A stretch of 64,000 nucleotides of DNA from Bifidobacterium cebidarum (GTDB lineage Bacteria > Actinomycetota > Actinomycetes > Actinomycetales > Bifidobacteriaceae). Below the pieces are notes generated by a model. The model saw only the letters and a program-made list of their open reading frames with translations. It searched no databases and was not told the origin of the DNA. Within the stretch, counting starts at the first letter, position 1. Each line of letters begins with the position of its first letter. Location: NCBI RefSeq assembly GCF_009193305.1, contig NZ_WBVS01000001.1, positions 434,001 through 498,000 on the forward strand, given 5' to 3'. Shown here piece after piece: positions 27,607 through 45,666 of this stretch. Position numbers and translations under genes: made by a program.

Positions 27607-28647
27607 TCAGTTTTGATGAATCACGCCATAGCCGTCATGCAGGAACGGCTCAAAGTCATCCTTGCGCGGACCTCCCGGCAGATGGCGAATCGAACGATCG
27701 GTGCCGAGCTTCTTCTCCTTGCGCAGCTCCGGCACCTCGGTCAAATCATATGGCGTGGTCTGATACACCCAGTTCAGCCAGTTGCGCCACAACAGATTGC
27801 CGTGGGCGCGCCAGCTGAACAACGGCTCCAGCGACGGGTCATCATGAGGGAAGTAGTTCTTCGGGAACGGCACGTTGGTAAGCCCCTTGGCCATATCGCG
27901 CTCATATTCCTCAGCAAGCGTGTACTTGCCATACTCCCAATGTCCCAGCGCGAACACTTCGGAGAAGTCGCGCGTGGCCACCAGCCCCGGGCCGGACTGA
28001 GGGCCCCAGGTCAGCACCTGCAGCTCCTGCTTCTTCAACTCCAGATCAGCCTCGTTCACACCGGCCAGACGCGAATGCGGCTGCAGGGCGATCTCATCGA
28101 AGCCGTTGGTCAGGAAGCAATACTCATCCTGCAGATATTGCGGGAAGACGCCGAAGATCTTCTGCGGATAATCCACTTTGCGCACACCGTAGCGGTAATA
28201 CAGTGCGCCCATCGCACCCCAGCACAGATACATGGTGGAGAACACATGGGTGGAGGCCCAGTCGAGAATGGTCTTGAATTCCTCCCAGTAGTCCACTTCC
28301 TCGAACGGCAGATGCTCCACCGGGGCACCGGTCACCACGAAGCCGTCGTAATAATTGTCTTTGAATGCATCCAGCGTCTCATAGAACTTCACCAGATGGT
28401 CAGCGGAGACATGCGTGGCCTCATGGGTGGAGGTCTTCATGAAATCCACCTCGACCTGCAGCGGGCTTTTGGAGATGAGGCGAAGCAACTGCGTTTCGGT
28501 CTCGATCTTCTTGGGCATCAGGTTCAGAATCACCAGTTTGAGCGGGCGCACACGCTGACGCTCAGCTTCAGGCTTCTCGAGGGCGAAAATACGCTCCGAA
28601 TCGAGGATGTCACGGGCCGGCAGGCCACTGGGAATCTTGATAGGCAT
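27607..28647 (-). CDS. metA: Homoserine O-acyltransferase (MetA family)
   Basis: Cytoplasmic enzyme (346 residues) that acylates homoserine in methionine synthesis. The catalytic Cys lies in STMYLCWGAMGALYYRYG, and the Glu/His pair in the C-terminal glutamine-amidotransferase-like fold (ALGHWEYGKYTLAEEYERD). PIKIPSGLPARDIL is the usual start, and ATG 28647 is chosen accordingly; the ribosome-binding site is weak. Whether acetyl- or succinyl-CoA is used cannot be safely decided by eye. It has its own terminator. Confidence 0.93.
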   Translation of the reverse strand: MPIKIPSGLPARDILDSERIFALEKPEAERQRVRPLKLVILNLMPKKIETETQLLRLISKSPLQVEVDFMKTSTHEATHVSADHLVKFYETLDAFKDNYYDGFVVTGAPVEHLPFEEVDYWEEFKTILDWASTHVFSTMYLCWGAMGALYYRYGVRKVDYPQKIFGVFPQYLQDEYCFLTNGFDEIALQPHSRLAGVNEADLELKKQELQVLTWGPQSGPGLVATRDFSEVFALGHWEYGKYTLAEEYERDMAKGLTNVPFPKNYFPHDDPSLEPLFSWRAHGNLLWRNWLNWVYQTTPYDLTEVPELRKEKKLGTDRSIRHLPGGPRKDDFEPFLHDGYGVIHQN

Positions 28648-28842: not shown

Positions 28843-28919
28843 CGCGGGGTGGAGCAGCTCGGTAGCTCGCTGGGCTCATAACCCAGAGGTCCATGGTTCA
28901 AATCCATGCCCCGCTACCA
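28843..28919 (+). tRNA. Initiator tRNA-fMet (CAT), prophage integration target
   Basis: A 77-nt cloverleaf with encoded CCA. Initiator features are visible: an unpaired 1-72 position (C opposite T), three consecutive G-C pairs in the anticodon stem (TGGG/CCCA) and anticodon CAT. The last 28 bases are part of the phage attachment core, so the 3' half of the present gene is phage-derived but identical in sequence to the host copy at 46606-46633. Confidence 0.97.
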
Positions 28920-29160
28920 ACGCCTCAGGTTTCACATTGAAGAAACCTGAGGCTTTTTCTATATCATCCATGTTCCAACGGGTGCGACCGCTGAACTTCT
29001 GCGACAAAGTCGGGGCAGCAATCCCCATAGCCTGCGCTAAATCCTTTTGTGAAGTCTGCCGAATAGCAATGAGAACTTTCACGTTATACGTGACACGATC
29101 CTGAAGGCTTACGCCTTGTTCCCGAGCCTTTAACGCCGGCGAGGCCATTACTGTAGTCAT
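28876..29160 (-). CDS. Phage repressor, lysogenic (truncated) form; gene crosses the att site
   Basis: DNA-binding protein of 94 residues, probably the immunity repressor. The helix-turn-helix is at about 35-57 (SQKDLAQAMGIAAPTLSQKFSGRTRW), of the Cro/CI xenobiotic-response type. There is no cleavage domain. The last residues (LVAGHGFEPWTSGL) are translated from the minus strand of the tRNA gene, because the coding region passes through the attL core and stops inside host DNA at 28876. Joining the phage ends on paper extends it to 116 residues (see findings). A promoter (TTGAAA, 17 bp, TAATCT) ends 7 bp before ATG 29160, so the mRNA is likely leaderless. It diverges from the Cro-like gene. 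Confidence 0.85.
   Translation of the reverse strand: MTTVMASPALKAREQGVSLQDRVTYNVKVLIAIRQTSQKDLAQAMGIAAPTLSQKFSGRTRWNMDDIEKASGFFNVKPEALVAGHGFEPWTSGL
28892..28920. repeat. attL core of the prophage
   Basis: A 29-bp sequence from the T-arm of tRNA-fMet to one base past CCA is repeated exactly at 46606-46634. The two copies are 17.7 kb apart and enclose all phage genes, with the integrase next to the right copy. Confidence 0.95.
28922..28958 (+). terminator. Phage-supplied terminator for tRNA-fMet, inside repressor codons
   Basis: Perfect 11-bp stem GCCTCAGGTTT/AAACCTGAGGC (28922-28932/28943-28953) with a 10-base loop, then TTTTT. It sits 2 bp after the tRNA and replaces the host terminator that integration has moved to 46637. 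On the minus strand the same bases encode residues of the repressor C-terminal half. Confidence 0.88.
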
Positions 29161-29249
29161 GTGAACTAGATTAGCAATATATAAATTTGGTTTCAACTTT
29201 ACAATTAGGAATTTGCAAATTCAAGAGTAATCGTGTATAAACGTTGGCT
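29161..29249. promoter_or_regulatory. Divergent repressor/cro promoters and operator
   Basis: Minus strand: -35 TTGAAA (29191-29196), 17-bp spacer, -10 TAATCT (29168-29173). Plus strand: -35 TTGCAA (29213-29218), 17-bp spacer, -10 TATAAA (29236-29241). A perfect palindrome GAATTTGCAAATTC (29209-29222) covers the -35 box of the plus-strand promoter; its core ATTTGCAAAT recurs at 29263-29272 inside the first codons of the Cro-like gene. These are likely operators. Confidence 0.8.
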
Positions 29250-29486
29250 ATGTGCGAAACAGATTTGCAAATGCCTAATCTTGGGTTGAGAATCAAAACC
29301 CAACTTGTGGCGCACGGCTATACACAGAAGGACGCAGCCGGAGTTCTTGGCATCTCTGAAGCAACCTTGTCAAACAAGATAACCGGCAAGATCAAGTTCA
29401 GAGCTGAGGAAATTGCCAGTCTCGCCTATTGGCTTGGCGTCCCCAGTGACGGTCTTCTTGGCCTCAAGCCATTGGAGGTGGCGTGA
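29250..29486 (+). CDS. Cro-like HTH regulator
   Basis: Small DNA-binding protein of 78 residues. The helix-turn-helix reads YTQKDAAGVLGISEATLSNKITGKIKFRAEEIASLAYWLGV, which is the Cro/CI pattern. ATG 29250 lies 8 bp after the -10 box, so it is probably leaderless like the divergent repressor. It starts the early transcript and overlaps the next gene (TGATG). A role in opposing the repressor is inferred from position. Confidence 0.82.
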   Translation: MCETDLQMPNLGLRIKTQLVAHGYTQKDAAGVLGISEATLSNKITGKIKFRAEEIASLAYWLGVPSDGLLGLKPLEVA

Positions 29487-30052
29487 TGTTTGGCTTCGTT
29501 TCGTTGGGTGTTTCTTTTTCGTCCTTGGTCGTTTCCTGCATCGCGCTTCACCGGTCCCGTGTGGCAGGGAACGAGGCCGACGGGGCCGTGGAGCGTAGCC
29601 GTTACGCTTTGGAGTCCTCACGCAAGCATGTGGGGCTCCCCTACGACCACGGGATCGTTGACAAGTGGGAGACCTGCACACGGTTCGGCTTTAATCCGCA
29701 GATCAAGGATGATTGGAACCGTCGCAAGGATTCCGACGGCGTGGTCGATTCCGATGACGCTTTTGAGATGTTCTCGGACGGGACGTATCGGATCGTTCCT
29801 AACTCAGGAGCTTTTTCTGTTCTGAAGCCCGTTTTCTGTCGAGAGCATGGAACCTGCGATGACCCATCATGTCCCTATACCGCCTACGCAGGCGTTCAAA
29901 GGGTCCGCACTTCATTGGTTCTATGCCCCAGATCGGGAACTGCGTATATCGACACCGGCGGAGACGCGTTGGAGAAGATACCCAATGCACTCCAATTTCT
30001 AGCTTCGTCAGATCGCCCGACTGTTCCGGGCGGGGATTCCTCGGGGGTGTGA
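29486..30052 (+). CDS. Unrecognised membrane-anchored phage protein
   Basis: Protein of 188 residues with an N-terminal membrane helix (FVSLGVSFSSLVVSCIAL) followed by HRSR, so the bulk should be cytoplasmic. The rest has a Cys-containing segment (CREHGTCDDPSC) but no domain I recognise. The start overlaps the Cro-like stop and has GGAGG upstream. Its last 254 bases overlap a convergent gene on the other strand that also has a good ribosome-binding site, so either one is false or the overlap is real. Confidence 0.55.
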   Translation: MFGFVSLGVSFSSLVVSCIALHRSRVAGNEADGAVERSRYALESSRKHVGLPYDHGIVDKWETCTRFGFNPQIKDDWNRRKDSDGVVDSDDAFEMFSDGTYRIVPNSGAFSVLKPVFCREHGTCDDPSCPYTAYAGVQRVRTSLVLCPRSGTAYIDTGGDALEKIPNALQFLASSDRPTVPGGDSSGV

Positions 30053-30458
30053 TCGTGATGAAGAACCGCATGGTCTCGCCGGTCAGCTCCGGCAATCTGC
30101 CGCAGTCGTTCATGATCCACTCGCTCTGCTTGCCTAGAACTGTTTCGCCGATTTGCCGGCAGTCCCATAGTCCGGCATCGCAGTTCACGCCGATCACTTT
30201 GACGTTGAAGGCTCTGCCGTCGCCGCAGTTCGCAAGGTATCCGATGACCGGCGGGTCGATGCCGGCCTTGCTGAAATCCGGCCACAGGAGCTTGTCGCCG
30301 TCGAGCATGGCGAAGAGCGGCGCGGCTTCGGCTCTCCATCTCCAACCGCGCGCGAACGTCAACAGCGAAACCATGAGCCCGAAGACGGCTATGCCGACGG
30401 TTATCCATGTTTGCGCAGTGAGTCCGAGAAACGTTATTTGCGTAAGGTCCACGCCCAT
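29799..30458 (-). CDS. Unrecognised membrane-anchored phage protein, antisense to the early operon
   Basis: Protein of 219 residues with one N-terminal helix (TWITVGIAVFGLMVSLLTFA) followed by RGWRWR, giving a cytoplasmic C-terminal domain. An AAGGAAG site lies just before ATG 30458. It lies against the early operon and could be expressed from the prophage as a lysogenic-conversion or exclusion gene; that is inference from orientation only. Its C-terminal 254 bases overlap the preceding plus-strand gene. Confidence 0.55.
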   Translation of the reverse strand: MGVDLTQITFLGLTAQTWITVGIAVFGLMVSLLTFARGWRWRAEAAPLFAMLDGDKLLWPDFSKAGIDPPVIGYLANCGDGRAFNVKVIGVNCDAGLWDCRQIGETVLGKQSEWIMNDCGRLPELTGETMRFFITITPPRNPRPEQSGDLTKLEIGVHWVSSPTRLRRCRYTQFPIWGIEPMKCGPFERLRRRYRDMMGHRRFHALDRKRASEQKKLLS

Positions 30459-30586
30459 TGATTCTTCCTTCCCTTGTTGTCGTTGGTTGGTTTTGTTGCG
30501 ATTGACAGCCTACGCCGATGGAGGAAGGACCTTAACCGTAATAATCCCTCTGCTTGCAAAGCAGATGCGCTAATGGAGGTGGTGTT

Positions 30587-30787
30587 ATGAGTGCTCAGAT
30601 CAGTGTGATCGTGCATGACCGACATAAGGACGAGGTCGTGGTGTGCGTCGTCGGTGATGACGGCAGCGCGTATTCGCGACTGGTCTCGGCCGAGGATCTA
30701 CAGCAGTGGATTGACGAGTTGCGTCTTGCCCAGCGCCAGCTCGGTTTCCACACGCCGGATTCGAGCAGGCGGGAGACGAAGCCGTGA
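30587..30787 (+). CDS. Small phage early protein, unknown
   Basis: 66 residues, acidic, soluble, starting MSAQISVIVHDRHKDEVVV. GGAGG lies before ATG 30587. The stop overlaps the start of the next small gene by GTGA. No domain recognised; it is probably a regulatory or host-takeover protein by position. Confidence 0.6.
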   Translation: MSAQISVIVHDRHKDEVVVCVVGDDGSAYSRLVSAEDLQQWIDELRLAQRQLGFHTPDSSRRETKP

Positions 30788-30927
30788 GGATTCTTAGGGT
30801 CGTGCTGGCTGCTCCGTTCGGCTTGTTGGCGTTCGGGTTGATGTTCGTTGCGACGTTGCTGGCGAAACTGGCGTCGTGGATCGCGTGGGATGGTAGGGGT
30901 CCTGTGAGGTTGAAGGTGGAATGGTGA
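30784..30927 (+). CDS. 47-residue phage membrane protein
   Basis: A short gene starting at GTG 30784, overlapping the preceding stop. It encodes a basic N-terminus (VRILRVV), a hydrophobic stretch (LAAPFGLLAFGLMFVATLLA) and a short hydrophilic tail ending KVEW. A single-pass membrane peptide is predicted. It overlaps the next gene (ATGGTGA), so the three small genes form one coupled operon. Confidence 0.55.
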   Translation: MRILRVVLAAPFGLLAFGLMFVATLLAKLASWIAWDGRGPVRLKVEW

Positions 30928-31106
30928 CGAGTCGTGTGTGGGTGGAGAACATGCCGCAGTATCCGGGCATTTTCTCGCTTCGGTGTGATTCGGGCGATGT
31001 GAGCGCGCGTATGGTGCTGACTTCGACGCAGGTCGAGTTGTTGCGTGCGTCGATCAATGATGCTTTGGCGAACGACGCGATGGTGCGCAAGCGGTTGCGC
31101 GAGTGA
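30921..31106 (+). CDS. Small phage early protein, unknown
   Basis: 61 residues (MVTSRVWVENMPQYPG start), with an amphipathic C-terminal helix rich in Ala and Arg. AAGGTGGA directly precedes ATG 30921. No recognisable domain. Confidence 0.55.
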   Translation: MVTSRVWVENMPQYPGIFSLRCDSGDVSARMVLTSTQVELLRASINDALANDAMVRKRLRE

Positions 31107-31546
31107 GTTCGTTTCTGCTTTTTCGATAATTTCATGCGCTGTGATGGGTTGCGACAGTCGGTGGGCCCTAGCGCGTCGAAAGTACCCGGCCGCGCCTTGC
31201 CCAGCGCGTTACAAACACACGCCCTGTGGGGGCGTGGTTACCACGCGGCGGGGGTCGTATGCGGGTTTACAGATCGTTGCAGGTCGGCGTGTTCGGGCGG
31301 AACTGGCGTCTTTGACCCTTGTCGGGGGCTTGCTTCGAGACCTTCCGCGCGGCCTTCGTGCCGCTGACCTGATGCGACGTCCCGGCTCCGTTACGAAGCA
31401 TTGGCGAACCCCCATGCGAAACGATGGAGCCTTGCGCTTTCTTGTTTCGCGTGCTTGGGTTCCCCGCTCTGAGCCCTCTCCACCCGAAGGTTCATGAAAC
31501 ATCAATTTCAATTATTCAGTCAATCACGGAATCGAGGTCAAGCAGG
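31107..31546. other. 440-bp GC-rich gap in the early region without a convincing gene
   Basis: Open frames here are Arg/Ser/Pro-rich, lack ribosome-binding sites and overlap on both strands, so I do not call them. The stretch is rich in short stems, for example CACGCCC/GGGCGTG at about 31212-31234 and GCGTGG/CCACGC directly after it. It could hold a structured RNA or the phage replication origin. The last 60 bases turn AT-rich before the next gene. Confidence 0.5.
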
Positions 31547-31888
31547 ATGGGTTACGCAGTTGATTACAGGCCGACTCGCAAGCGTGCGAAACGTCAGGTG
31601 CCGCAGAACAGGGAACAGCGGAAAAGGGACATCAGGAACGCGGTGAAGTGGAATCTGGGGAGGTTGGAGCACGATACCACTGGCACGGATTCGGTCAGTC
31701 GTTCCATGGTGTGCTTGCTGTTGAGGTTGGGCAAGGTGGCGCCGGCCGCCGATCCTACCGGGGACCATTTGTTGCAGCAGCTGATCAGCGAGGGAGTTTT
31801 GAATCGTCCGACCCGCAGAGCTGGCGAACAGGTGTTCGACCGTGCGGACCTGCTGGCGTCGTTGAAGGCATGGGTGGGAAGGGCATGA
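31547..31888 (+). CDS. Phage protein, unknown
   Basis: 113 residues with a basic N-terminus (YRPTRKRAKRQVPQNREQRKRDIRN) that could bind nucleic acid, and a C-terminal half that looks like a small winged-helix (LLQQLISEGVLNRPTRRAGEQVFDRADLLASLKAWVG). ATG 31547 is preceded by GAGG. It overlaps the HTH gene by 4 bp (ATGA). Confidence 0.6.
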   Translation: MGYAVDYRPTRKRAKRQVPQNREQRKRDIRNAVKWNLGRLEHDTTGTDSVSRSMVCLLLRLGKVAPAADPTGDHLLQQLISEGVLNRPTRRAGEQVFDRADLLASLKAWVGRA

Positions 31889-32082
31889 ATCCACGTGCGA
31901 AGCTGACCACCGCTCAGGCGGCGATGTATGTGGGCATGAGCAAGCGGCAGTTGGAGCGCATGAGGTGCGATGGCACTGGTCCCACTTGGTTCAAGGCCGG
32001 CGATGCGGTCAATAGTCCGTGCATGTACGAGCTAGCCGATCTTGACCTGTGGGTGAGGACGCGGAAGGGGAAGGTGAGGTAG
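31885..32082 (+). CDS. Excisionase-like HTH protein
   Basis: 65-residue MerR/AlpA-type DNA-binding protein: LTTAQAAMYVGMSKRQLERMRCDGTGPTWFKAG followed by ELADLDLWVRTRKGKVR is the usual HTH_17 pattern with wing. Such proteins serve as excisionases or small activators; no other excisionase candidate is seen in the prophage. Coupled to both neighbours (overlap upstream, adjacent GTG downstream). Confidence 0.72.
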   Translation: MNPRAKLTTAQAAMYVGMSKRQLERMRCDGTGPTWFKAGDAVNSPCMYELADLDLWVRTRKGKVR

Positions 32083-32799
32083 GTGGCAAGAAGGCATGTC
32101 ATTGATCCTCGTGTGCGTACCGAGGTCATTGAGACGTATGGCAATACCTGTTGGCTTGGATTGCCGGGATGCACGCAGGTTGGGGCGGAGGACGACCATA
32201 TCGTGCCGTATTCGCATGGCGGCAGGGATACCGTGGCGAATATCCGCCGTGCGTGCAAGCACTGCAACTCAAGCCGTCAGGATCGCGTGCTGTACGGGTA
32301 CGGCGCCAGGCTGCATGTGGTGCTCGTGCCGCCCTGCTGCGAGTCCGATGCTTTGGAGTACATCGAGGCTCGTCGAAGCCAGGACGACCCGGTGGTGTGC
32401 GCTTCCCGCCTGGCCGAGTCGATGGGCGTGGAGCGACGTAGCAGCGCGGTGGGCAAGGCCGTGGGCATGGCGTGGAGCGGCGCTTACAGACAGTTCGCCA
32501 CGTGCGGCGCGCCCATCGATGTATGGCTGGTGCGTGTCATGCCCAGCAGCAGGCGACATCCACGCATGTTGGATGAATGGCTGGCGTTGGACTATGACGT
32601 TCGTGTGGTGGACCCCGGCTTCGCGGAAGCGTTCGGCAGGGCCGCGAACATCGAGGAACGCAAGCTGGTACGTCAATGGTATGGGCTGCATCTCTCGCAG
32701 GCGCTCATCGATGCGAGGCAGCAGGCGCGGCGTGCGAGGCTCGCGGCCCTTGGATTGCGTGCGGTGGCGGACGAGTCGCCGAGCCGGCCGGTGTGGTAG
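32083..32799 (+). CDS. HNH endonuclease with degenerate kinase-like C-terminal domain
   Basis: 238 residues. The N-terminal HNH nuclease is clear: CWLGLPGC, DDHIVPYSHGG, NIRRACKHCNSSR, with zinc-binding Cys pairs. Position before terminase fits the HNH proteins that assist cos cleavage and packaging. The C-terminal part (about 75-200) looks like a P-loop kinase fold in which the nucleotide loop is eroded (LHVVLVPPCCESDALEYIEA). GTG start directly after the preceding stop. Confidence 0.78.
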   Translation: MARRHVIDPRVRTEVIETYGNTCWLGLPGCTQVGAEDDHIVPYSHGGRDTVANIRRACKHCNSSRQDRVLYGYGARLHVVLVPPCCESDALEYIEARRSQDDPVVCASRLAESMGVERRSSAVGKAVGMAWSGAYRQFATCGAPIDVWLVRVMPSSRRHPRMLDEWLALDYDVRVVDPGFAEAFGRAANIEERKLVRQWYGLHLSQALIDARQQARRARLAALGLRAVADESPSRPVW

Positions 32800-32959
32800 C
32801 CGCTTTTTTAAGCGATACGGCCCGACCGATACCCCGCGCCCAGTTTTTTCTCCCCCCAGTTCGGAATAAAAAAGTCGGAAAACCTTGGAAAACCAAGGAT
32901 TCCCGACCATTCACCTTCGGAATGAGAATATATCACTTTATTGCGATGAGGGGCAAATA
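32800..32959. other. Gap with nested hairpin before the terminase genes
   Basis: No gene. A hairpin with CCTTGG/CCAAGG (32883-32888/32893-32898) lies inside a wider imperfect pairing of GTCGG with CCCGAC. T-rich tracts (32808-32814, 32844-32849) and poly-A (32867-32873) flank it. This may separate early from late transcription or mark the packaging site; neither can be shown here. Confidence 0.4.
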
Positions 32960-33274
32960 ATGATGATGCTGGAAGGATTCGATGAGGACACCGGTCGTGA
33001 TATCGGACGCCAGGAAAAGGCCGCGCGCCGCATAGTCGATTATCTAGGGGCATCGCACCCGGAATATGACCCGGTGCTTGACGGCCTGTGCCAGTCGCTG
33101 CTTTCCCTGGGCGAGAACATCGACCGGCAGAACTCCCGAGGCCGCGAGATTTCAAGGAACATGGCGCAGTACATCGATGCCTTGTGGAAGATACGCGATA
33201 TGTTCCCAACCGAGCAGATGGCCGACGAGGACGTGGAGGCGGCGTGGAGCGGGGAGCCGTCCGATGCTGATTAG
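32960..33274 (+). CDS. Terminase small subunit (probable)
   Basis: 104 residues, acidic, largely helical, directly upstream of and overlapping the large terminase by 11 bp, which is the usual place for the small subunit that recognises phage DNA. No clear HTH is visible to me, so the call rests on position and size. ATG 32960 follows GAGGGG by 6 bp. Confidence 0.65.
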   Translation: MMMLEGFDEDTGRDIGRQEKAARRIVDYLGASHPEYDPVLDGLCQSLLSLGENIDRQNSRGREISRNMAQYIDALWKIRDMFPTEQMADEDVEAAWSGEPSDAD

Positions 33275-34706
33275 GGGTGGCACGGAACGGAACCAGGAAC
33301 GGGAGACCCTGGGCTGGCGTCTGGCCGGCATCGCCAGGATGATGGGCACGCCGCTGATTCCATGGCAGCGGCACGTGGCCGACGTGGCCTGTGAAATCGA
33401 CCCGGAGACCGGAACGTTCTTCTACGACACCGTGGTGATATCCACTCCCCGCCAGTGCGGCAAATCCGCTCTCGTGGACGCGTCCGACACGTTCAACGCT
33501 TCACTTGGCCGACGCCGGCGCATTGCCTACGCGGCGCAGACAGGCAAGGATGCGGAGGATCACTTCAAGGAATACGCCGAACTTATCCAGGGCACGCGTC
33601 TGAACCAGAAGATAGACAAGTTCAGGTTCAGCAACGGCGGCATGAACGTGACCTTCACGAACGGCAGCACGATAACGCCCATGGCCATGACGAAGGTGGC
33701 CGGTCACGGCAAGCAGATGGACAAGGTGACCATCGATGAGGCCTTCTCCTTGACGAAGGAGGCCGGCGACACCATCATGGACGCCATCATTCCGACCATG
33801 AACACCCGGCTGAAACACACCGGCATCACGGCGCAACGGTGGATAACCTCGACCGAGGGCAATTCAGAATCTACGTATTTCAACCCGCTGCTGGACGGGC
33901 TGCGCTCCGGTGACGTACCGCAACGCACCTGCTGGTTCGATTTCGGCATTCCCTCCGACGCGGACCCCGAGGACCTCGATGTGGTCATGCGCTATCATCC
34001 TGCGGCCGGTTATCTGTGGTACAAGCCCCAGTTGCGGGACTTCCGGGAAAGCTTCGGCGACAACACGGCCGGCTGGGCGCGAGCGTTCGGCAACCGGCGC
34101 GACATGGGTGTTTCCGACAGGGTGATAGACCCAGACCTGTGGGAGTCGAGCGCGACCGCACCGGTGAGGGTGGAGGACATCAACGGCCGGCCGCTCGTGT
34201 TCGCCGCCGCCGTGGACGTGGACGCCACCACCACCAGCGTCAGCGTCGGCATCGTCAACCCTGACGGCACCATAACCACGCAATTGCTGAAGACCATGCC
34301 AGGCACCGGCGACGCCCCGGAGGAAATCACCAGACTGTGCACCGACTACGCGGCCCCGCTGGTCATGGACTCGAAGGGGCCCAACGGCGACCTGTACGAC
34401 CGACTCACCCAACTCACCGACAGTTACGGCGATCCACTCATCCGTTTCGTGGAGATGAGCGCCGGCGACTACCTGACCGTAGGCCAGTCCTATGTGAGCG
34501 GATTGCAGAATCATACCGTGCTCCATGCCATCGACGGGGAACTTGACATGAGCGTGGCCATGAGCGCACGCACATGGTCGGGCGACGCATGGCGCATAAC
34601 CAGACGCGGAAGCACGGGCCTGACCTCGCCGCTTGAATCATGCATGTTGGCCGCGTGGGGCGCCGTGCACCGTCCCGAAGACTCCGGACCCCTGCAAATC
34701 TACTGA
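33264..34706 (+). CDS. Terminase large subunit
   Basis: DNA-packaging motor of 480 residues. ATPase: Walker A-like STPRQCGKSALV at about 61-72 and Walker B VTIDEAF. C-terminal RNase H-like nuclease with acidic residues in AVDVDATT and VMDSKGPNG. Size and order (small terminase, large terminase, portal) match HK97-type siphoviruses. ATG 33264 has GGGGAG upstream. Confidence 0.9.
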   Translation: MLIRGGTERNQERETLGWRLAGIARMMGTPLIPWQRHVADVACEIDPETGTFFYDTVVISTPRQCGKSALVDASDTFNASLGRRRRIAYAAQTGKDAEDHFKEYAELIQGTRLNQKIDKFRFSNGGMNVTFTNGSTITPMAMTKVAGHGKQMDKVTIDEAFSLTKEAGDTIMDAIIPTMNTRLKHTGITAQRWITSTEGNSESTYFNPLLDGLRSGDVPQRTCWFDFGIPSDADPEDLDVVMRYHPAAGYLWYKPQLRDFRESFGDNTAGWARAFGNRRDMGVSDRVIDPDLWESSATAPVRVEDINGRPLVFAAAVDVDATTTSVSVGIVNPDGTITTQLLKTMPGTGDAPEEITRLCTDYAAPLVMDSKGPNGDLYDRLTQLTDSYGDPLIRFVEMSAGDYLTVGQSYVSGLQNHTVLHAIDGELDMSVAMSARTWSGDAWRITRRGSTGLTSPLESCMLAAWGAVHRPEDSGPLQIY

Positions 34707-34710
34707 CCGT

Positions 34711-34770
34711 TTGGCGGTACTTGGCGGTACTTGGCGGTACTTGGCGGTACTTGGCGGTACTTGGCGGCAC
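34711..34770. repeat. Six tandem copies of a 10-bp unit
   Basis: TTGGCGGTAC is repeated five times perfectly (34711-34760) and once with one change (TTGGCGGCAC). It fills most of the gap between the terminase stop and the portal start. It is the only such repeat in the window. Confidence 0.95.
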
Positions 34771-34812
34771 GGTGGTGGACGGAAACCGAATCAGACTCGC
34801 ATAATCGGCGGC

Positions 34813-35937
34813 ATGAACAACCGTCTGAGTCTCTGGGATCGTATGAAGCTCGCCGGGCGTATCCTGACCCGCAGTGATGCGGATGATATGCCCGATGGAG
34901 TCAGGCCGCCCAGTCGTGAGCCGGTGTGCGACCCGTTGAGCCTGTCCACCGTGTTCCGCGGAGTGCAGGTGTTGCAGACCGCGATAACCGGTCTGCCGAT
35001 CCACGAGATGCGCGGCGGGTTGAAGCTCGACACCGTGAGCTCGCTGATCCTCCAACCCGACGTGAACCGAAGCCGCCGCGACTTCCTCGCCGACATGGTG
35101 GCCAGCATGGTATTGGACGGCAACGCTTTCGTTCGACTCGTGCGATACACCGGCGAAGTCGTGACCTGCGAGGTGCTGCCGCCCTCGCTCGTGACCGTCT
35201 CGGACGACGGCAAGGACCCAGCAGCGCCGAAGCTCCGTTACTCGTATCTCGGTGTGGACTACACGGCCGACCAGATCGTGCACTGCAAGTTTTTAAACGT
35301 GCCCGGTCGACTGCGAGGCCTCGGCCCCATCAGCGCGGCACGCGAGGAAGTCGAAAGCGCGCAGCAGGCGCGGGACTACAAGGCCCGCTTCTACACCGAT
35401 TCCAGCAACCTCAAGGGCTACCTGTCCACCGAGGACAAGGTGACGCCCAACATCGCCAGGAACGCGAAAGAGGCATGGAAGGCCACCGGAACCGCGGGCG
35501 ACATCAAGGTGCTGGGCAGCAAGCTGAAATACGTGCCGCTGGACATGAAGCCGGCCGACTTGCAGTTTTTGGAAACCCAGAAGTTCGACACCACGCAGAT
35601 CGCGCGACTGTTGGGCATTCCCGCGTCCATCATGCTCGCCGCAGTCGATGGCAGCAATCTCACCTATTCGAACATCGAGCAAAGCTGGATTGAGTTCGCC
35701 GACTACACGCTGGCCGCCTACGCGGGCGAGATAGAGGAACTGTTCAACCGGCTGCTGCCGCGCGGGAGAACGGCCGCGTTCGACTGGGATTCAAGTCGCC
35801 GCGCCGACATGAGCGACCGTTTCAACGCATACAAGACCGCCCTCGAATCAGGGTGGATGGAAATCAACGAGGTGCGCGCACGCGAGGCCCTGCCCCCGCT
35901 CATCAACGCGCCGCAACCGGAAGAGGTGAACCAGTGA
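34813..35937 (+). CDS. Portal protein, HK97 type
   Basis: 374 residues; the dodecameric gate through which DNA enters the capsid. Family features: LSLSTVFRGVQVLQTAITGLPIHE near the N-terminus, and QLLQFLET-like KPADLQFLETQKFDTTQIARLLGIPASIML with the YSNIEQSWIEF block. ATG 34813 is chosen since earlier codons lie in the tandem repeat; the ribosome-binding site is weak (GGCGG). The stop overlaps the next gene's GTG. Confidence 0.9.
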   Translation: MNNRLSLWDRMKLAGRILTRSDADDMPDGVRPPSREPVCDPLSLSTVFRGVQVLQTAITGLPIHEMRGGLKLDTVSSLILQPDVNRSRRDFLADMVASMVLDGNAFVRLVRYTGEVVTCEVLPPSLVTVSDDGKDPAAPKLRYSYLGVDYTADQIVHCKFLNVPGRLRGLGPISAAREEVESAQQARDYKARFYTDSSNLKGYLSTEDKVTPNIARNAKEAWKATGTAGDIKVLGSKLKYVPLDMKPADLQFLETQKFDTTQIARLLGIPASIMLAAVDGSNLTYSNIEQSWIEFADYTLAAYAGEIEELFNRLLPRGRTAAFDWDSSRRADMSDRFNAYKTALESGWMEINEVRAREALPPLINAPQPEEVNQ

Positions 35938-37529
35938 ACCGTCATGAAATCGGATTCAAAGGCATATGCCTACGTGCTGCTGAGGAAGGCGACGGCCGCA
36001 CATTGGAAGGCATCGCCGTGCCCTTCGGCAGCATCATCGACACCTGGGAGGGAGCCGAGACCTTCGACCCCGACTGCCGTTTCGATGACGTGGACAACGC
36101 CAAGCTCTGCTACCAGCACGGCGAACTCATCGGCCGCATCACGGGAGCGGAAAGCCGCGACGACGGTCTGCACATCACCGCCAGAATCTCGGACACGCAG
36201 CGAGGCCGCGACGTGGTGGCCCTCCTTCGAGACGGCGCTCTCGACTCCCTGTCTGTCGGCTTCATCCCAGTGCAGGACGAAACCGACAAGCAGGGCATCA
36301 CCCACCGCAAGCGTGTCCGCCTGTTGGAAACAAGCGTGGTCAGCTGGCCCGCCTATGAGGCGGCGAAAATCACCGGCCAACGCAGCGCCGCCGAAACGAA
36401 CACCCCGGAAATCGAAAAACACGATCCATCGAAGGAAAGCGAGGAAACCCGAATGGACAAGGAACTGGAAGAACTGCTGAACGGCATCAAGGACGAGCAG
36501 CGCAGCATGAAGGCCGCGCTGGCCCACGCCGGCGCGCCGGAGAAACCGAAGCCGCTGGGCGCGGAATACCGTACAGCCGGCGATTACCTCCAGGCCCTCT
36601 ACCGAGGTGAGGAAGCCGCCGTGAACCTCATGCACGAATGCCGCGACCTGATCGTCACCGGCGACACCGGCAACACGTCCACCTGGATCGCGGACGACCT
36701 GCGACTGATCCAGATGCGCCGCAAGGTCACGAACCTCCTGACCCATGACACGCTGCCGGCCAAGGGCATGACCATGGAGTACAACGTGGTGGCCACCGAC
36801 ACCACGACCACCGGCAAGCAGGCGAAGGAAGGTGACGCGCTGCCGTTCGGCAAGGTCACGTTCGGCACCAAGAGCGTCGGCATCGACACTTACGGCGGCT
36901 ACACCACGCTGAGCCGTCAGACCATCGAACGCAGCACCACGCCAATGCTCAACACCGCCCTGGCCGCGCTGCGCAACGCGTATGCGAAGGCAACCGAAAC
37001 CGCCGTGCGCACCTACCTGTACGACACCATCGCCACCCAGCGCGACGCCACCACCGGAGCGAACAAGATCGACGCGCCCGCCGCCCTGGCCGCTATGACC
37101 ATCGACCAGTGGGCCGCGCTCATCATGGACGCCGCCGAACTCGCCGACGATCGCAACGTCAACCTCACCCGCTTGGGCGTCAGCAAGGACGTGATGGCCG
37201 CTCTCATCAAACTGAAGGACACCGGCAGCCGCTTCTTCGACCTTTCCGGCGACGGCAGCGACACCATCGGCAGCTTCGACCTTACCGGCATCGCCGGCCG
37301 CTTCCTGCGAGTCCCCGTGCAGATGCTGCCGAAGGCCCCGACCGGAACCGCCTGCTTCATCGACCCCGAAGCCGTCACCGTATGGGAGTCGGGTGGCCCC
37401 ACCCAGCTGAGCGACGGCGACCCGACCAAACTCACCGAGAACTATTCGGTCTATGGCTATCTCGCCGTGGCCGCCACGCAGCCTCTGGGCCTGATCCCCG
37501 TCAAGTTCGCGGCCAACGCGGGTGCGTGA
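35934..37529 (+). CDS. Fused prohead protease and major capsid protein, HK97 type
   Basis: 531 residues combining two proteins that are usually separate. Residues 1-about 155 are the prohead serine protease: catalytic His in CYQHGELIGRITG and Ser in DSLSVGFIP. A charged scaffold-like helix follows (about 165-200, MDKELEELLNGIKDEQRSMKAAL), then the HK97-fold capsid protein (YTTLSRQTIERS, RFFDLSGDG). Self-cleavage between the parts is expected. GTG start 35934 overlaps the portal stop. Confidence 0.88.
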   Translation: MNRHEIGFKGICLRAAEEGDGRTLEGIAVPFGSIIDTWEGAETFDPDCRFDDVDNAKLCYQHGELIGRITGAESRDDGLHITARISDTQRGRDVVALLRDGALDSLSVGFIPVQDETDKQGITHRKRVRLLETSVVSWPAYEAAKITGQRSAAETNTPEIEKHDPSKESEETRMDKELEELLNGIKDEQRSMKAALAHAGAPEKPKPLGAEYRTAGDYLQALYRGEEAAVNLMHECRDLIVTGDTGNTSTWIADDLRLIQMRRKVTNLLTHDTLPAKGMTMEYNVVATDTTTTGKQAKEGDALPFGKVTFGTKSVGIDTYGGYTTLSRQTIERSTTPMLNTALAALRNAYAKATETAVRTYLYDTIATQRDATTGANKIDAPAALAAMTIDQWAALIMDAAELADDRNVNLTRLGVSKDVMAALIKLKDTGSRFFDLSGDGSDTIGSFDLTGIAGRFLRVPVQMLPKAPTGTACFIDPEAVTVWESGGPTQLSDGDPTKLTENYSVYGYLAVAATQPLGLIPVKFAANAGA

Positions 37530-37531
37530 TC

Positions 37532-37867
37532 ATGGCCGAACCCGATTGGTCCGACTACGAGGCGGCGGTCCGCGATGAAATCGGCGTGCCAGCCGGTGAC
37601 GAAGAGCGCATCAGACGCGCCATCGCATCCGCCATGGCTTACGTGACGGGAGCGATAGGCGGCTACACGGTGTCGGATACGGTGCGTGCGGATTGCGTGG
37701 CCGCGTGCGCCGCCGACCTGTACAACATGAGGGACGCGCGCCTGGGCGTGATGAACGTGGCGGACGGCACCCTGGAACCGTTCAGGATATCCAGCGACCC
37801 GCTGCGCAGCGTCTGGCAGAAACTCAACGCCGCCGGCGTGCCCACCGGGGGAATGGTGATCGCATGA
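37532..37867 (+). CDS. Head-tail connector protein
   Basis: 111 residues, mostly helical, of the HK97 gp6 type by size, helix pattern (DEERIRRAIASAMAYVTGAIGGY) and position right after the capsid gene. It probably forms the ring on the portal. Overlaps the next gene by ATGA. Confidence 0.7.
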   Translation: MAEPDWSDYEAAVRDEIGVPAGDEERIRRAIASAMAYVTGAIGGYTVSDTVRADCVAACAADLYNMRDARLGVMNVADGTLEPFRISSDPLRSVWQKLNAAGVPTGGMVIA

Positions 37868-38238
37868 GCAGCCTGATCGTGGAACAACGCGACCGTCTCG
37901 CAATGAGACTGCGGGAGACCCTGGGCGGCATGGCGGCCGTCGTCACCGACGACGCGCAGAAGGCCAGGCCTCAGGCCGACCGCATCGCCGTGCTCATCGA
38001 ATGGCCGGACATCGACTATCCGACATGGGGCAACGACCCCGAGACCACATGGCGTGTGGACCTCATCGCCGGAACCATGGCCACCCAGGCCAGAAGCCTC
38101 GAAACCATCGGCAAGGCGCTCGACCTCATCGCAGGAACCGACCTGTGCGTCATCCAGGCGAGGGCCGTCACCTTCACGCTCTCCGGCGTGGGGGACCTCT
38201 CCGCCTACCAGCTGACCATCAACCCATCGGACCTATAG
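37864..38238 (+). CDS. Head-tail joining or tail-terminator protein
   Basis: 124 residues. Position between the connector and the major tail protein, and an alpha/beta make-up (RIAVLIEWPDIDYP, DLIAGTMATQA), suggest a stopper or tail-terminator protein. The specific family is not certain. Confidence 0.6.
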   Translation: MSSLIVEQRDRLAMRLRETLGGMAAVVTDDAQKARPQADRIAVLIEWPDIDYPTWGNDPETTWRVDLIAGTMATQARSLETIGKALDLIAGTDLCVIQARAVTFTLSGVGDLSAYQLTINPSDL

Positions 38239-38250
38239 AAAGGAACAAGA

Positions 38251-38679
38251 ATGGCCGACAAGATTCGCACCCTTGGCCCCGGAAGCCTCGTCATCGGGGC
38301 CGACGCGGACGCATACAAGCTCGATGTGGACTGCACGAGCGTGGAGCTTGCGCCGGACAACTCCAGCGAGGATCCTGACAACTTCCTCGACGGACACGAG
38401 GAAGGCGGCGCGCTGACCACATCATGGAAGCTTTCCGGCAGCATCGGCGAAGACTATTCCATGACCGGCGCCCAGGTGTATTGCCTGGACCACGCCGGCG
38501 AACTGAAGCACGCCAAGTTCATCCCGAACACCAAGGGCTCGCTCCAATTGGACCTGGACGTGACCATCGCGCCCATCGCGTTCGGCGGCGATGTGAAGAC
38601 CCGCAACAAGAAGGACTTCGAGTTTGCCGCCACCAACGTGAAGGCCTCCGCATACACGACGGCCGCCGAGGGAGCCTGA
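38251..38679 (+). CDS. Major tail protein (probable)
   Basis: 142 residues, rich in beta-strand and Asp/Thr, ending in an Ala-rich tail. Position upstream of the tail chaperones and the strong ribosome-binding site AAAGGAAC fit the highly expressed tube protein. The motif GSLQLDLDVTIAPIAFGGD is compatible with a tail tube fold. Confidence 0.72.
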   Translation: MADKIRTLGPGSLVIGADADAYKLDVDCTSVELAPDNSSEDPDNFLDGHEEGGALTTSWKLSGSIGEDYSMTGAQVYCLDHAGELKHAKFIPNTKGSLQLDLDVTIAPIAFGGDVKTRNKKDFEFAATNVKASAYTTAAEGA

Positions 38680-39062
38680 TGGCCGACCGGGCCCTGTACG
38701 TGGTCGGGCAGAAACGATTCGTGGCCACGATGCGCAAGGCCGGCGCCGACATGAAGGAACTCAAATCGGTGAACCGTCAGGCCGCCGACCTCGCGGCCCC
38801 GGCCGTCCGGAGCCGTGCGCCGCACGGCAAGAGCGGGAAACTCGCCGCCAGCATCCGCGCGGGAGCCACGCAGAAGGCCGGCGTTGTGCGCGCCGGCCGC
38901 AAGTCCGTGCCTTACGCGGGCGTTATCAATTACGGGTGGCCCAAACGGCACATCAGACCGAGAACGTTCGTGAACGACGCAGTGGCCGCCACCGAACCCG
39001 AATGGACACGGCTTTACGAGCAATTCATCAGGAAGACATTGAACCAAGTGCAAGGAGCATGA
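38679..39062 (+). CDS. HK97 gp10-like tail-completion protein
   Basis: 127 residues; basic N-terminal half (KSVNRQAADLAAPAVRSRAPHGKSGKLAASIR) and YAGVINYGWPKRHIRPRTFVNDAV resemble the HK97 gp10 family of tail components. Overlaps the preceding stop (TGATG). In most phages this gene lies before the major tail protein; here it follows. Confidence 0.75.
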   Translation: MADRALYVVGQKRFVATMRKAGADMKELKSVNRQAADLAAPAVRSRAPHGKSGKLAASIRAGATQKAGVVRAGRKSVPYAGVINYGWPKRHIRPRTFVNDAVAATEPEWTRLYEQFIRKTLNQVQGA

Positions 39063-39063
39063 C

Positions 39064-39327
39064 ATGAGCAAACGACCGACCGCGAAGGTCACCTATACGG
39101 ACGGCCATACGGAAGAGGCGCCGATCTCTCCCCGAGTCGTCACCGGCATGGAGGAGCACGCGCAGAAGGAAGGCTGGACGCCGGGCGAAGGCAGCAAGCT
39201 TCGGCAGTCCTACTACATGGCGTATCTCGCGCAGCGGTACGCGGGCAACACGCAGATTCCCTATGAGAAATGGCTCGACGCCGTGGATGAAATCGAGGTG
39301 GAGACGCCGGGAAACCCTACCGAATAG
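39064..39327 (+). CDS. Tail assembly chaperone, zero-frame product (gpG-like)
   Basis: 87 residues. It precedes the tape-measure gene and ends soon after a slippery heptamer, as lambda gpG and its relatives do. Starts ATG 39064 directly after the preceding stop. Confidence 0.78.
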   Translation: MSKRPTAKVTYTDGHTEEAPISPRVVTGMEEHAQKEGWTPGEGSKLRQSYYMAYLAQRYAGNTQIPYEKWLDAVDEIEVETPGNPTE

Positions 39328-39494
39328 AGGCGTGGGACGACGGTTCGCTGGGCCGTCTCTCGCTGATCCTCGCCGCCCGGTTCGGCGGCACCCCGTGGGA
39401 ATGGCGGCAGAAGGCCAGCGAACTCGACTGGGGAACGGGCATCGAACTGCTCATGGAGGAAATGGAACGCATGGAGGAGGTGGACCATGGCTAA
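39064..39494 (+). CDS. Tail assembly chaperone, -1 frameshift product (gpGT-like)
   Basis: A programmed -1 frameshift at G GGA AAC (39309-39315) would join residues 1-84 of the preceding chaperone to a second frame (39315-39494), giving a 143-residue fusion. The second frame is clearly coding: RFGGTPWEWRQKASELDWGTG is the usual T-domain pattern, and it ends at 39494, overlapping the tape-measure start at 39487. The fusion chaperone wraps the tape measure during tail assembly. Confidence 0.85.
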
Positions 39495-41481
39495 GAGCGC
39501 GATCATGTCGGTACGCATCACCGGCAACTCGGACGACGCCGTGAAGGCGCTCTCCAGGGTGACGGGCAAGGCCGCCGCGTTCGGCTCGTTCATGGGCGGC
39601 GCGGCCCTCAAGGGCGTGAGCGCTCTCTGGGACACGCTCAAGGGCTTCACGTCGGACGTGATGGCCATGAGCGATTCGACCGACAAGTTCAAGAACACGA
39701 TGAGCTTCGCCGGCTTCGACACCACCGCAATCGACAAGGCGTCCAAGGCGGCGCGCAAATACGCCGACGAAACCGTTTACGACCTTTCCACCGTACAGAA
39801 CACCACCGCCCAGCTCGCGGCCAACGGCATCGGCGACTATACCGGCCTGACCCAGGCCGCCGGCAACCTCAACGCGGTGGCGGGCGGTAATGCGGAGACG
39901 TTCAAGAGCGTGGCCATGATGCTCACCCAGACCGCCGGCGCGGGCAAACTCACCACGGAGAACTGGAACCAGCTCACCGACGCGATACCGGGCGCCAGCG
40001 GCAAGCTCCAGGAAGCCATGCGCAAGGCAGGAGCCTATACCGGCAACTTCCGCGACGCCATGGCGAACGGCGAGATAACCGCCGAAGAGTTCAACCAGGC
40101 GCTGCTCCAGCTCGGCATGACCGACGTGGCCAGACAGGCCGCCACCAGCACGCAGACCATGGAAGGCGCGATGGGCAATCTGGAGGCCGCCGTGACCGGC
40201 GGTCTCACGGATGCCTTCGACCTGCTGAAGCCCACCATCACATCGGCGATGGGCACGGCCGCCGAAAAGGTCACCGAGTTCTCCGGCAAGGCCACCACGG
40301 CCATCAAGGGCGTTATCTCGTTCGTCCGGGACGGGGACTTCACCAGCGAGTTCGCGCAGGCGTTCAACGTCACCGAGGACTCGCCGGTGGTGGATTTCCT
40401 CTTCACGCTAAGGGACACCGCCGTGGGAGTGTTCGACGCGGTAAAGTCACGGGCCGATTCGCTCAAGACGGGGTTCGACTCCCTCACGCAGGGCATCGGT
40501 GCGGTATTGGGCCCCGTGATCCAGTTCGCCACCGACTCGCTCGGATTGACCAACAATCTGGACGCCGGGGCCACGGCCTCGCAGACGTTCGGGGATATGC
40601 TCGGCTTCATCTCCGACACGCTCCAGACGGCCGGCACATGGTTGCAGCAGAACAGCCAATGGCTCGGCGCTCTCGTGGTCGGCATCGGCGGAGCCGTGGC
40701 CGCCTATCAGGCATGGCAGACCGCGATAGCCGTATGGCAGACCGCGACCCGGATCGCCACCGGAGTACAGACCGCGTTCAACCTCGTGATGAACGCCAAT
40801 CCCATCATGCTCGTCATCACCGCCATAGCCGCATTGGTGGCCGCGCTTGTCTACTTCTTCACCCAGACCGAGACCGGCCGGCGGATATGGTCGAGCTTCA
40901 CCAACTGGCTCGGCACCTGCGTAAACAACATCATCGGCTTCTTCCAGGCGCTGCCCGGCCGCATACGCGAGTTCTTCAGCAACGCGGCACAGGGGGCCAC
41001 GGACACATGGAACAACGTGGTCAGCTGGTTCTCCGGTCTGCCTGGCCGCATCCTTGGAGCCATCGGCAACGTCGGAAGCCTTTTATGGAACGCCGGCTCG
41101 TCCATAATCAACGGTTTCCTGAACGGCCTGAAAAGCGCCTGGAACGGCGTGACCGACTTCGTGGGAGGCATCGCCGACTGGATCGCGGAGCACAAAGGCC
41201 CGGCCAGCTACGACAAGAAACTGCTCGTGAAAAACGGCCGGCTCATCATGAAGGGCCTCGCCGCAGGCATGGACTCGGGCTTCGACACCGACGTTCGCCG
41301 CGCCGTCAAACGCATCAACACCGGCATGGGACGGCTCGCCTTCGAAACACCGACCGCAACCGGGACACAGACGGTAGGCGACACTTACAACATCACGGTG
41401 CAGACCGGCGTGGGCGACAAATACGAGATAGGCAAGGAAATAGTCAAATACATCAAAACATATAAGGGGACACTCTCATGA
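39487..41481 (+). CDS. Tape measure protein
   Basis: 664 residues, the longest phage protein, Ala/Thr-rich and helical. The N-terminal region (TTAQLAANGIGDYTGLTQAAGNLNAVAGGN) is the conserved tape-measure domain; two hydrophobic stretches at about 394-420 and 437-457 are typical for later membrane passage of DNA. At about 0.15 nm per residue the tail should be near 100 nm. GGAGG precedes ATG 39487. Confidence 0.9.
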   Translation: MAKSAIMSVRITGNSDDAVKALSRVTGKAAAFGSFMGGAALKGVSALWDTLKGFTSDVMAMSDSTDKFKNTMSFAGFDTTAIDKASKAARKYADETVYDLSTVQNTTAQLAANGIGDYTGLTQAAGNLNAVAGGNAETFKSVAMMLTQTAGAGKLTTENWNQLTDAIPGASGKLQEAMRKAGAYTGNFRDAMANGEITAEEFNQALLQLGMTDVARQAATSTQTMEGAMGNLEAAVTGGLTDAFDLLKPTITSAMGTAAEKVTEFSGKATTAIKGVISFVRDGDFTSEFAQAFNVTEDSPVVDFLFTLRDTAVGVFDAVKSRADSLKTGFDSLTQGIGAVLGPVIQFATDSLGLTNNLDAGATASQTFGDMLGFISDTLQTAGTWLQQNSQWLGALVVGIGGAVAAYQAWQTAIAVWQTATRIATGVQTAFNLVMNANPIMLVITAIAALVAALVYFFTQTETGRRIWSSFTNWLGTCVNNIIGFFQALPGRIREFFSNAAQGATDTWNNVVSWFSGLPGRILGAIGNVGSLLWNAGSSIINGFLNGLKSAWNGVTDFVGGIADWIAEHKGPASYDKKLLVKNGRLIMKGLAAGMDSGFDTDVRRAVKRINTGMGRLAFETPTATGTQTVGDTYNITVQTGVGDKYEIGKEIVKYIKTYKGTLS

Positions 41482-43025
41482 GCGGCCGCCTAGCATTGCT
41501 CTACCTCGACCGTGGCAATGGCTGGGAGTGCCTGACCCCGCATGATAAGGACCAGGCCGCGCTTGAGTCTTTGTCTATCGATTGGGGCACGGATTCCATC
41601 GACTCGCAGCCCGACGCTCCGGTGCTGAGGTTCACCATCCGAGACCGCACCGGTTCGCTGGCCGGCGACGTGCTGTATCTGGCCGGCGCCAAGGTGTGGG
41701 TGCAGAAGACGGATGCCGTAGCCTGGCAACGGTTCGATATCGCCGGCCAGTGGCAGCAGGTGGCCGCGAGTGTTTCATGGGCGGAGCTGGAGGACCTGAA
41801 GCCATCCACGATTCCGTCCGTGCCTGATACTGGTCTTGAATCCGTATTCTATGGGCGTGTCACCGTGGGTGGCGAGGTCACGCAGCGCAAGCGCGGCGAT
41901 TGGCTCGTGAGCCTGTACGCGTCTGGCATGAGTGTGCTCACGCAGCGTCAGGCCACGCAGGGACCGGAACAGTCGGGGACTCTCGCTGGCCATCACTGGC
42001 CGGTGGACCCTGTGGAGCGTCTGGACGTGCTGCAATCACGGTTGACCATGCTGGGCGTGCCGTTCACGGCCGACGCGCTAGAGTGGCTTCGCCGTCACCT
42101 ACCGCCGTCATTGGCGCCCTATGGGGACGACTCTCATCCCGATCTGATCACGCTCGTGCGCAATCTCGCTTCCGGTTCTCCCGACTGGCCGCTGGTATAC
42201 GAAACATGCGAACGCGGGCGCGCGACGCCCGGAAGCATGACGGTGGGCTTGCCTGGCGCGCCGGCCATCATCGCCATGCTGCCTGACGGTACGATTGCCA
42301 CCGCGTGGCAGGGCCATGTCACGCCCACGATTCCGGCCGAACTGGTCATGGTGGACGAGACCACGCTGGGGTTGCCCGATCCGATTACCCAGGTCACGCT
42401 CAAGGGCAAGCGTGTCACATGGGACGGGGAAAAGTCCGTGTTCGGCTTCGAGGATTCCGAACTCACGTTCTCGGATCGTGGTCTCGTGCCGGACAATCTC
42501 ACGGAATCGCAGAAAAGCGTTTCGGTGGATTCCGACGCCGTGCTGAAGGACGACACCGGCGGCCATTGGACGGCCGGCATCTACTCGCCGTCGGATTCCG
42601 ACCGGCTGCGGCGCGCTGCCGTCATATTGGCGAACAGCACCCGTCTTCGTCCGCAGTCGTTGCGCGTGGAGTCACGGAAGGTGGACGATGTGGAGCACGC
42701 CGACCAATTCCATGCGTGGCCCGGTCTGCCGTTGACGTTCATCCATAACCGTTACACGCCGTTGGTGGCGCGTGATGGCACACCGGCCACGGCCGGCGCG
42801 TGGCTGCCGGTCGGCGGCACGCTTACCTACCGGCATCGTGCCGGTGAGGCCACGTGGTCGAACGAACTGGATTTGCACCCGCTGGCGCGTGACCCGACCC
42901 TGGCGGCGTTGCGTTGGAGGGATTTGCGGCCGTTGACGTGCAAGTGGGAGCGGCTGCCGGAAATGACGTGGGCCGAATGGGGCCAGATAGACATCATCAC
43001 CACCGAACAGGAGCTGGAGGCATGA
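41478..43025 (+). CDS. Tail protein (distal/minor tail)
   Basis: 515 residues, beta-rich, directly after the tape measure and overlapping it by 4 bp. By order it should be the distal tail or tail-associated protein at the tail tip. I recognise no specific catalytic motif (a repeated W-rich, Asp-rich strand pattern is visible). Confidence 0.65.
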   Translation: MSGRLALLYLDRGNGWECLTPHDKDQAALESLSIDWGTDSIDSQPDAPVLRFTIRDRTGSLAGDVLYLAGAKVWVQKTDAVAWQRFDIAGQWQQVAASVSWAELEDLKPSTIPSVPDTGLESVFYGRVTVGGEVTQRKRGDWLVSLYASGMSVLTQRQATQGPEQSGTLAGHHWPVDPVERLDVLQSRLTMLGVPFTADALEWLRRHLPPSLAPYGDDSHPDLITLVRNLASGSPDWPLVYETCERGRATPGSMTVGLPGAPAIIAMLPDGTIATAWQGHVTPTIPAELVMVDETTLGLPDPITQVTLKGKRVTWDGEKSVFGFEDSELTFSDRGLVPDNLTESQKSVSVDSDAVLKDDTGGHWTAGIYSPSDSDRLRRAAVILANSTRLRPQSLRVESRKVDDVEHADQFHAWPGLPLTFIHNRYTPLVARDGTPATAGAWLPVGGTLTYRHRAGEATWSNELDLHPLARDPTLAALRWRDLRPLTCKWERLPEMTWAEWGQIDIITTEQELEA

Positions 43026-44509: not shown

Positions 44510-44524
44510 GGAAAGGACGTAGCA

Positions 44525-44967: not shown

Positions 44968-44991
44968 ACCCCTCAAAGGAAAGGAACCATC

Positions 44992-45651: not shown

Positions 45652-45666
45652 ACCACAGACCCCGAA

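Follow-up and report, generated by a model that had tools for sequence, protein, structure and literature searches.

Mycobacteriophages such as Charlie carry attP inside the repressor gene. For BPs, integration-dependent immunity has been described, with repressor forms of 103 and 136 residues (PMC4557955), and the same integration-dependent logic has been reported for the small Gordonia phages of cluster CW, with tRNA-Lys as the site used by the CW phages named there (PMC5559632). In Bifidobacterium itself, a switch of this kind with ssrA-like tags was predicted for the B. breve prophages Bb423phi2 and 689b-1, which are ~18 kb long and reside at the tRNA-Met gene beside metA (Mavrich et al. 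2018, PMC6109161).

Here, we describe a prophage of this type in the window, i.e. the whole 64-kb stretch of DNA that was analysed. Its attP would lie inside the repressor gene, the free-phage form of the repressor would bear an LAA tag that makes it a predicted ClpXP target, and integration would very probably yield a stable, active repressor. The first-pass annotation of this DNA had proposed integration-dependent immunity of the BPs kind and had believed it to be undescribed in the genus. The first half of that proposal is supported by the layout, the homology of the integrase, the match between LAA and the SsrA tag, the relatives and the existence of uncut attP forms. The second half has to be given up: the same switch had been predicted at the same site (Mavrich et al. 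2018, PMC6109161), so that this is not a new mechanism in the genus. The degradation tag, in the ending SAFILAA, is the strongest evidence for the switch and was absent from the first-pass annotation.

The prophage and its attachment sites

The prophage is bounded by two identical copies of the 29-bp core CATGGTTCAAATCCATGCCCCGCTACCAA, the left of which constitutes the 3′ part of the tRNA-Met(CAT) gene (Table 1). Its structural genes include those for terminase, portal, capsid/protease and tape measure, the main ones being open frames, and a CHAP lysin and a holin represent the lysis functions. For the small candidate excisionase, an NCBIfam search returned no match. A tail-region protein with a GDSL lipase/acylhydrolase domain is encoded on the plus strand at 42914–44506.

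Both attachment sites are accompanied by terminator-like hairpins. The one flanking attR on its host side probably terminated the tRNA originally and was displaced by the prophage, and the one just after the tRNA would be its replacement, supplied by the phage and encoded opposite the last codons of the repressor. A phage-supplied terminator that lies in a repressor's last codons and replaces the host tRNA's own is possibly new.

Table 1. Features of the prophage, its attachment sites and the adjoining host genes, in window coordinates.
Feature	Position	Strand	Evidence or remark
metA-like gene adjoining tRNA-Met(CAT)	27610–28644	−	MetA model matches below curated cut-offs
tRNA-Met(CAT), integration site, intact	28843–28919	+	ARAGORN, Rfam
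Repressor, prophage form, 94 aa	28876–29160	−	HTH families (Pfam), transcriptional repressor (PHROG)
Prophage, 17.7 kb	28892–46634		Bounded by, and including, both copies of the 29-bp core
attL core, 29 bp, within repressor frame	28892–28920		Core repeat
12-pair hairpin with T-run, resembling an intrinsic terminator, directly behind tRNA	28922–28953	+	Opposite strand of the repressor's last codons
Candidate repressor promoter, TTGTAA - 17 - TATATT	29176–29204	−	Consensus match only
Candidate operator ATTTGCAAAT, copy 1	29211–29220		Exact copy; inverted-repeat pair
Cro-like HTH protein, divergently encoded, no more than 80 aa (uncertain start)	29244–29486	+	Pfam HTH_3; PHROGs
Candidate operator ATTTGCAAAT, copy 2	29263–29272		Exact copy; inverted-repeat pair
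Candidate excisionase, small HTH_17-like protein	31885–32082	+	Weak HTH_17, E 0.00087, below Pfam cut-off
Tyrosine integrase, Xer-like length	45667–46515	−	PF00589; XerA/XerC models below cut-offs
attP-form repressor tail, 27 residues ending SAFILAA, severed from the gene in the prophage	46524–46605	−	In-silico attP
Perfect inverted repeat, 28-bp arms (46559–46586 and 46595–46622), 8-nt loop	46559–46622		T-arm core and inverted copy
attR core, 29 bp	46606–46634		Core repeat
Terminator-like hairpin, host side of attR	46637–46666	+	Role predicted

One repressor gene, two C-terminal ends

In the integrated state, the repressor starts at ATG 29160 on the minus strand and ends in GFEPWTSGL, its TGA stop codon (28876–28878) overlapping the tRNA anticodon (28877–28879). 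The first-pass annotation had given this frame 94 residues, a course across the 29-bp core and a stop at 28876, all of which hold. Its account of the free phage is equally borne out, as joining the prophage ends in silico places the core inside a reading frame that remains open to the TAA at 46524–46526 and encodes 116 residues ending in SAFILAA. The prophage form is shorter than the virion form, and integration would exchange 27 phage residues for the five that are read from the tRNA (WTSGL). Two findings had been named in advance as counting against the idea, namely an attP frame closed before 46524 and a separate full-length repressor elsewhere in the phage. The in-silico frame stays open, and no second full-length repressor was present among the prophage ORFs scanned, in which the only other HTH proteins were the divergent Cro-like one and the weak HTH_17 match.

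We rejected the open frame as sufficient evidence, since, of 5000 dinucleotide-shuffled versions of the joined side, 1697 remain open for at least 116 residues. The ending carries more weight, as the same control produced LAA in one and AA in 26 of the 5000 shuffles. The LAA end of the attP form matches the tmRNA (SsrA) tag encoded in the host's own genome, AKSNRTEFALAA, which was the same in all 10 relatives read, and clpX is present in the genome as well. Going by sequence, the ssrA-like C-terminal tag is confined to the virion form, meaning that the longer of the two forms would be the unstable one.

An AlphaFold model of a relative's repressor (P0011; mean pLDDT 69) places the HTH helices within residues 17–80, followed by a tail in which residues 90–114 fall below a pLDDT of 50. 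Based on this model, the DNA-binding part of the repressor is complete in both forms.

Control region, integrase and proposed mechanism

The repressor shares its control region with the divergent Cro-like gene, and the promoter and operators indicated there are consensus matches only. As the ATG at 29160 lies close behind the candidate promoter, we infer a leaderless start for the repressor. Exact copies of ATTTGCAAAT occur just twice in the 64 kb, both times between the repressor and the Cro-like gene; with one mismatch allowed, the count is three, which 12 of 100 shuffles matched.

In the joined attP, the repressor gene lies directly upstream of the tyrosine integrase gene and points in the same direction. 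The true start of the integrase is probably ATG 46497 or 46491; in two relatives, L007 and L009, stop codons closely follow the upstream start. The distance from the repressor stop to these ATG candidates is 26 or 32 bases, so that one transcript probably carries both genes. The integrase frame is uninterrupted, and its product can be aligned with its family from end to end. The XerA/XerC models cover most of the protein, so that a distinct domain for arm binding is not evident. In systems of the BPs type, the integrase too carries a C-terminal degradation signal; the integrase here ends in RLAV.

These elements can be combined into the following scheme. While the phage is circular, a single promoter would drive both the repressor and the integrase; the tagged 116-aa repressor would be destroyed, leaving lytic growth as the default. 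Once enough integrase had accumulated, the phage would integrate at tRNA-Met, an event that would remove the tag and at the same time separate the integrase from its promoter. The short repressor would then silence the divergent Cro-side promoter, perhaps by binding at the two ATTTGCAAAT sites. Integration would in this way both make the decision for lysogeny and stabilise it. We consider this predicted mechanism well supported by sequence.

Recurrence in related prophages

Relatives were sought by integrase searches of 112 genus genomes, 189 family genomes and IMG/VR, together with 20 individual stretches of DNA. We kept 11 loci in which a longer repeat located close to the integrase recurs at a distance from it, and dropped three (L075, L085 and L090) that had no integrase match; in L079, L081 and L082 of the 11, the repeat is not an attachment core and no attL/attR pair was read. 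Comparison with other Bifidobacterium prophages, which the first-pass annotation had recommended, showed that the layout recurs: both repressor forms are in frame at 8 of the 11 attL/attR pairs. The attP form ends in LAA in five of the eight (this prophage, L074, L076, L083 and L084), in LTA in L077 and in LVD in L078 and L080. The codons for LAA vary synonymously among the relatives (CTA GCG GCG, TTA GCT GCC, CTC GCC GCC and CTA GCA GCC). Regarding the terminator at attL, a hairpin with a T-run is present at five of the eight sites examined (this prophage, L074, L076, L078 and L083), weaker or later in L077 and L084, and absent from L080.

A broader T-arm survey covered Bifidobacteriaceae and viral contigs, with the viral loci being the best 80 of 341. 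After removal of duplicates and of viral loci with the integrase at the contig edge, the set comprised 71 rows, 27 of which have a T-arm upstream of the integrase (L138, L139 and L141 among these are near copies). At these 27 loci, the viral ones again drawn from the best 80 of 341, the tail is LAA in 14, LTA in four and LVD in three, with QAA, LSA, LAD, KVA and RVA appearing once each, as does TGA (L036), which is probably unrelated; where two frames fitted, one was chosen, and an attL partner confirms the choice only in L022, L032 and L033.

The fMet core itself was found in 23 viral stretches on 16 contigs, which include 10 prophage-side repressors ending in TSGL, seven tag sides ending in LAA, one ending in LVD, four short TSGL frames without a repressor and one uncut attP ending in LAA (L116). 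The core variant of Bb423phi2 and 689b-1 had no match in the scan of viral contigs. Uncut attP was seen in two metagenomic viral contigs, L116 and L137, in each of which the repressor body, the LAA tag and the integrase are unbroken. In L116, the integrase follows directly after the repressor and the end of the contig duplicates its opening bases, as expected of a circular genome, and the repressor body of L137 matches BetR/HTH.

Among 83 relatives from protein databases, 24 have prophage-form ends, 26 end in LAA, three in L[TVS]A, three in LVD and 27 in other sequences. One repressor body is represented in both forms, with P0047 (TSGL) and P0011 (LAA) being 98% identical, and closely similar bodies bear several tags (among P0010–P0029), as would fit an exchange of modules at the core. 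The variety of tails counts against the proposed switch, as do the LAA-form repressors P0022, P0035 and P0061, which belong to clusters whose longest contig is chromosome-sized (221–673 kb); these may be prophages in tandem, with attP formed anew where one adjoins the next, or another explanation applies. LVD tails, which are found in L078, L080, L110 and L140 (both on one contig), P0034, P0059 and P0066, correspond to no SsrA-type end that we know of. A different host SsrA tag was considered as their origin and rejected, as both LVD hosts tested (G084 and G089) have the ordinary tag.

Similar parts also occur in another arrangement, with repressor and integrase adjacent on opposite strands, in L046, L047 and L048 (G099, G104 and G109). 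In L016, L017 and L018, integrases of the same family lie beside an intact tRNA, with neither palindrome nor tag.

A palindrome that follows the tRNA target

The perfect inverted repeat at attR sits within the DNA that encodes the tag, and it differs with the tRNA target among the relatives. At 18 of the 27 T-arm loci (viral loci being the best 80 of 341), the T-arm is accompanied by an inverted copy that deviates from it by no more than one mismatch in 14. The nine of the 27 without a close copy, with the viral loci selected in the same way, comprise six with five mismatches and three with six to seven; among the former, L014, L143 and L226 retain a palindrome of 19–20 pairs deeper in. The arms covary between 19 loci chosen for their palindromes, one column displaying all four Watson–Crick pairs. 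Pairing in these 19 loci is 0.95 for a locus's own arms versus a mean of 0.75 when arms are swapped between loci, with the within-locus value being partly given by construction since the loci were picked for having a palindrome. The uncut attP of L116 has such a palindrome as well, and a search for T-arm palindromes in EricDab, in Emperor and upstream of the integrases of L016–L018 gave none. Some relatives use a different reading frame for the right arm (RFKSMG for VQIH), so it is not the peptide that is conserved there. This inverted T-arm copy within tag-coding DNA, which tracks the tRNA target, is possibly new.

A tentative and on balance unlikely extension of the scheme is a two-layer switch, in which the palindrome, copied from the T-arm and kept matched to the tRNA, would act as a lambda-sib-like RNase III hairpin in the repressor–integrase mRNA of the free phage or as a second, inverted site for an Xer-like integrase that has no arm-binding domain. 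If so, integration would in a single step free the repressor message of hairpin and protein tag alike. Of all parts of the locus, the palindrome is the one most worth testing at the bench.

Alternative explanations

The prophage might be a cryptic remnant, that is, a formerly switchable element that no longer excises and in which the 94-aa repressor has become fixed. Such a view can point to 689b-1 and Bl-1, whose size initially led to their being classed as cryptic, as noted by Mavrich et al. (2018, PMC6109161). However, the two core copies are identical in the present prophage, the integrase frame is unbroken and fits its family over the full length, the main structural genes are open and relatives are found as uncut attP in viral contigs; we regard a remnant as improbable.

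It could also be argued that the switch operates primarily on RNA, with the attP palindrome folding in the repressor–integrase mRNA, RNase III cutting it and the protein tag playing a secondary role. The sib hairpin of lambda is cut by RNase III, and an RNase III is encoded in the prophage's own host genome. The perfect 28-bp stem has an RNA z-score of −11.3, and 17 of the 19 loci chosen for their palindrome retain an RNA helix that runs unbroken for 19 bp or more. Yet, the 18 unpaired cells (of 359) include no G–U pair on the mRNA strand, and no close inverted copy of the T-arm is present at 9 of the 27 T-arm loci (viral loci being the best 80 of 341), which makes an RNA-based switch highly improbable in our judgement. 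The palindrome was not adopted as the chief switch in the main reading.

Least probable of all is an incidental read-through, in which the repressor merely ends near the att site and both forms are equally active without any regulatory role: the shuffles that stay open just as long and the fact that frames running into the tRNA are common at tRNA-integrated elements would agree with it, but the match of the LAA end to the host tag, the fact that different lineages spell LAA with different synonymous codons, the existence of uncut attP forms and the homology with phage groups for which integration-dependent immunity has been described all speak against it.

Implications and comparison with known systems

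Removal of the degradation tag by integration is the reading that we favour. Its recurrence, the uncut attP forms and the match between the tag and the host SsrA peptide make the switch directly testable in harmless gut bacteria. The locus also illustrates how much can be placed in one short stretch of DNA, which carries the end of a tRNA, the recombination core, the tail and tag of the repressor, a replacement terminator for the tRNA and a palindrome that tracks it. Since recombination at the core can join the repressor of one phage to the tag and integrase of another, the attachment core may drive the exchange of modules.

The nearest phage integrases are those of the Gordonia phages EricDab (46% identity) and Emperor (43%) and of mycobacteriophages of the Angel kind (43–44%), all of which also have the order of repressor then integrase. 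EricDab and Emperor further resemble the present prophage in genome size, overall gene order and repressors ending in AA, their integrases being 43–46% identical to the one described here, and from size and layout we infer that they belong with cluster CW. The best inverted repeat that precedes their integrase genes resembles a terminator and has 12 or 11 pairs, whereas the T-arm palindrome occupies this region here.

With BPs (PMC4557955), the prophage shares an attP within the repressor gene, a short prophage form and a long, tagged virion form, a repressor upstream of the integrase and a divergent Cro-like gene. It differs from BPs in the lengths of the two forms, 94 and 116 residues as against 103 and 136, and in its tRNA-Met site. 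The repressor of Angel, a relative of BPs, ends in LDKAS rather than in LAA.

The likeness to Bb423phi2 and 689b-1 (Mavrich et al. 2018, PMC6109161) extends to the genus, the tRNA-Met gene beside metA (here with MetA-like matches below curated cut-offs), a size of ~18 kb (here 17.7 kb), an integrase at one end with the repressor at the other, and a predicted ssrA-like tag on the attP form of the repressor. These two prophages have a 39-bp core, and their prophage-form repressor lacks a tail of 18 residues; here, the core measures 29 bp and 27 residues would be exchanged for five. What had been a prediction for two B. breve prophages now appears as a recurring Bifidobacterium pattern, accompanied by uncut attP forms and a tag that matches that of the host.
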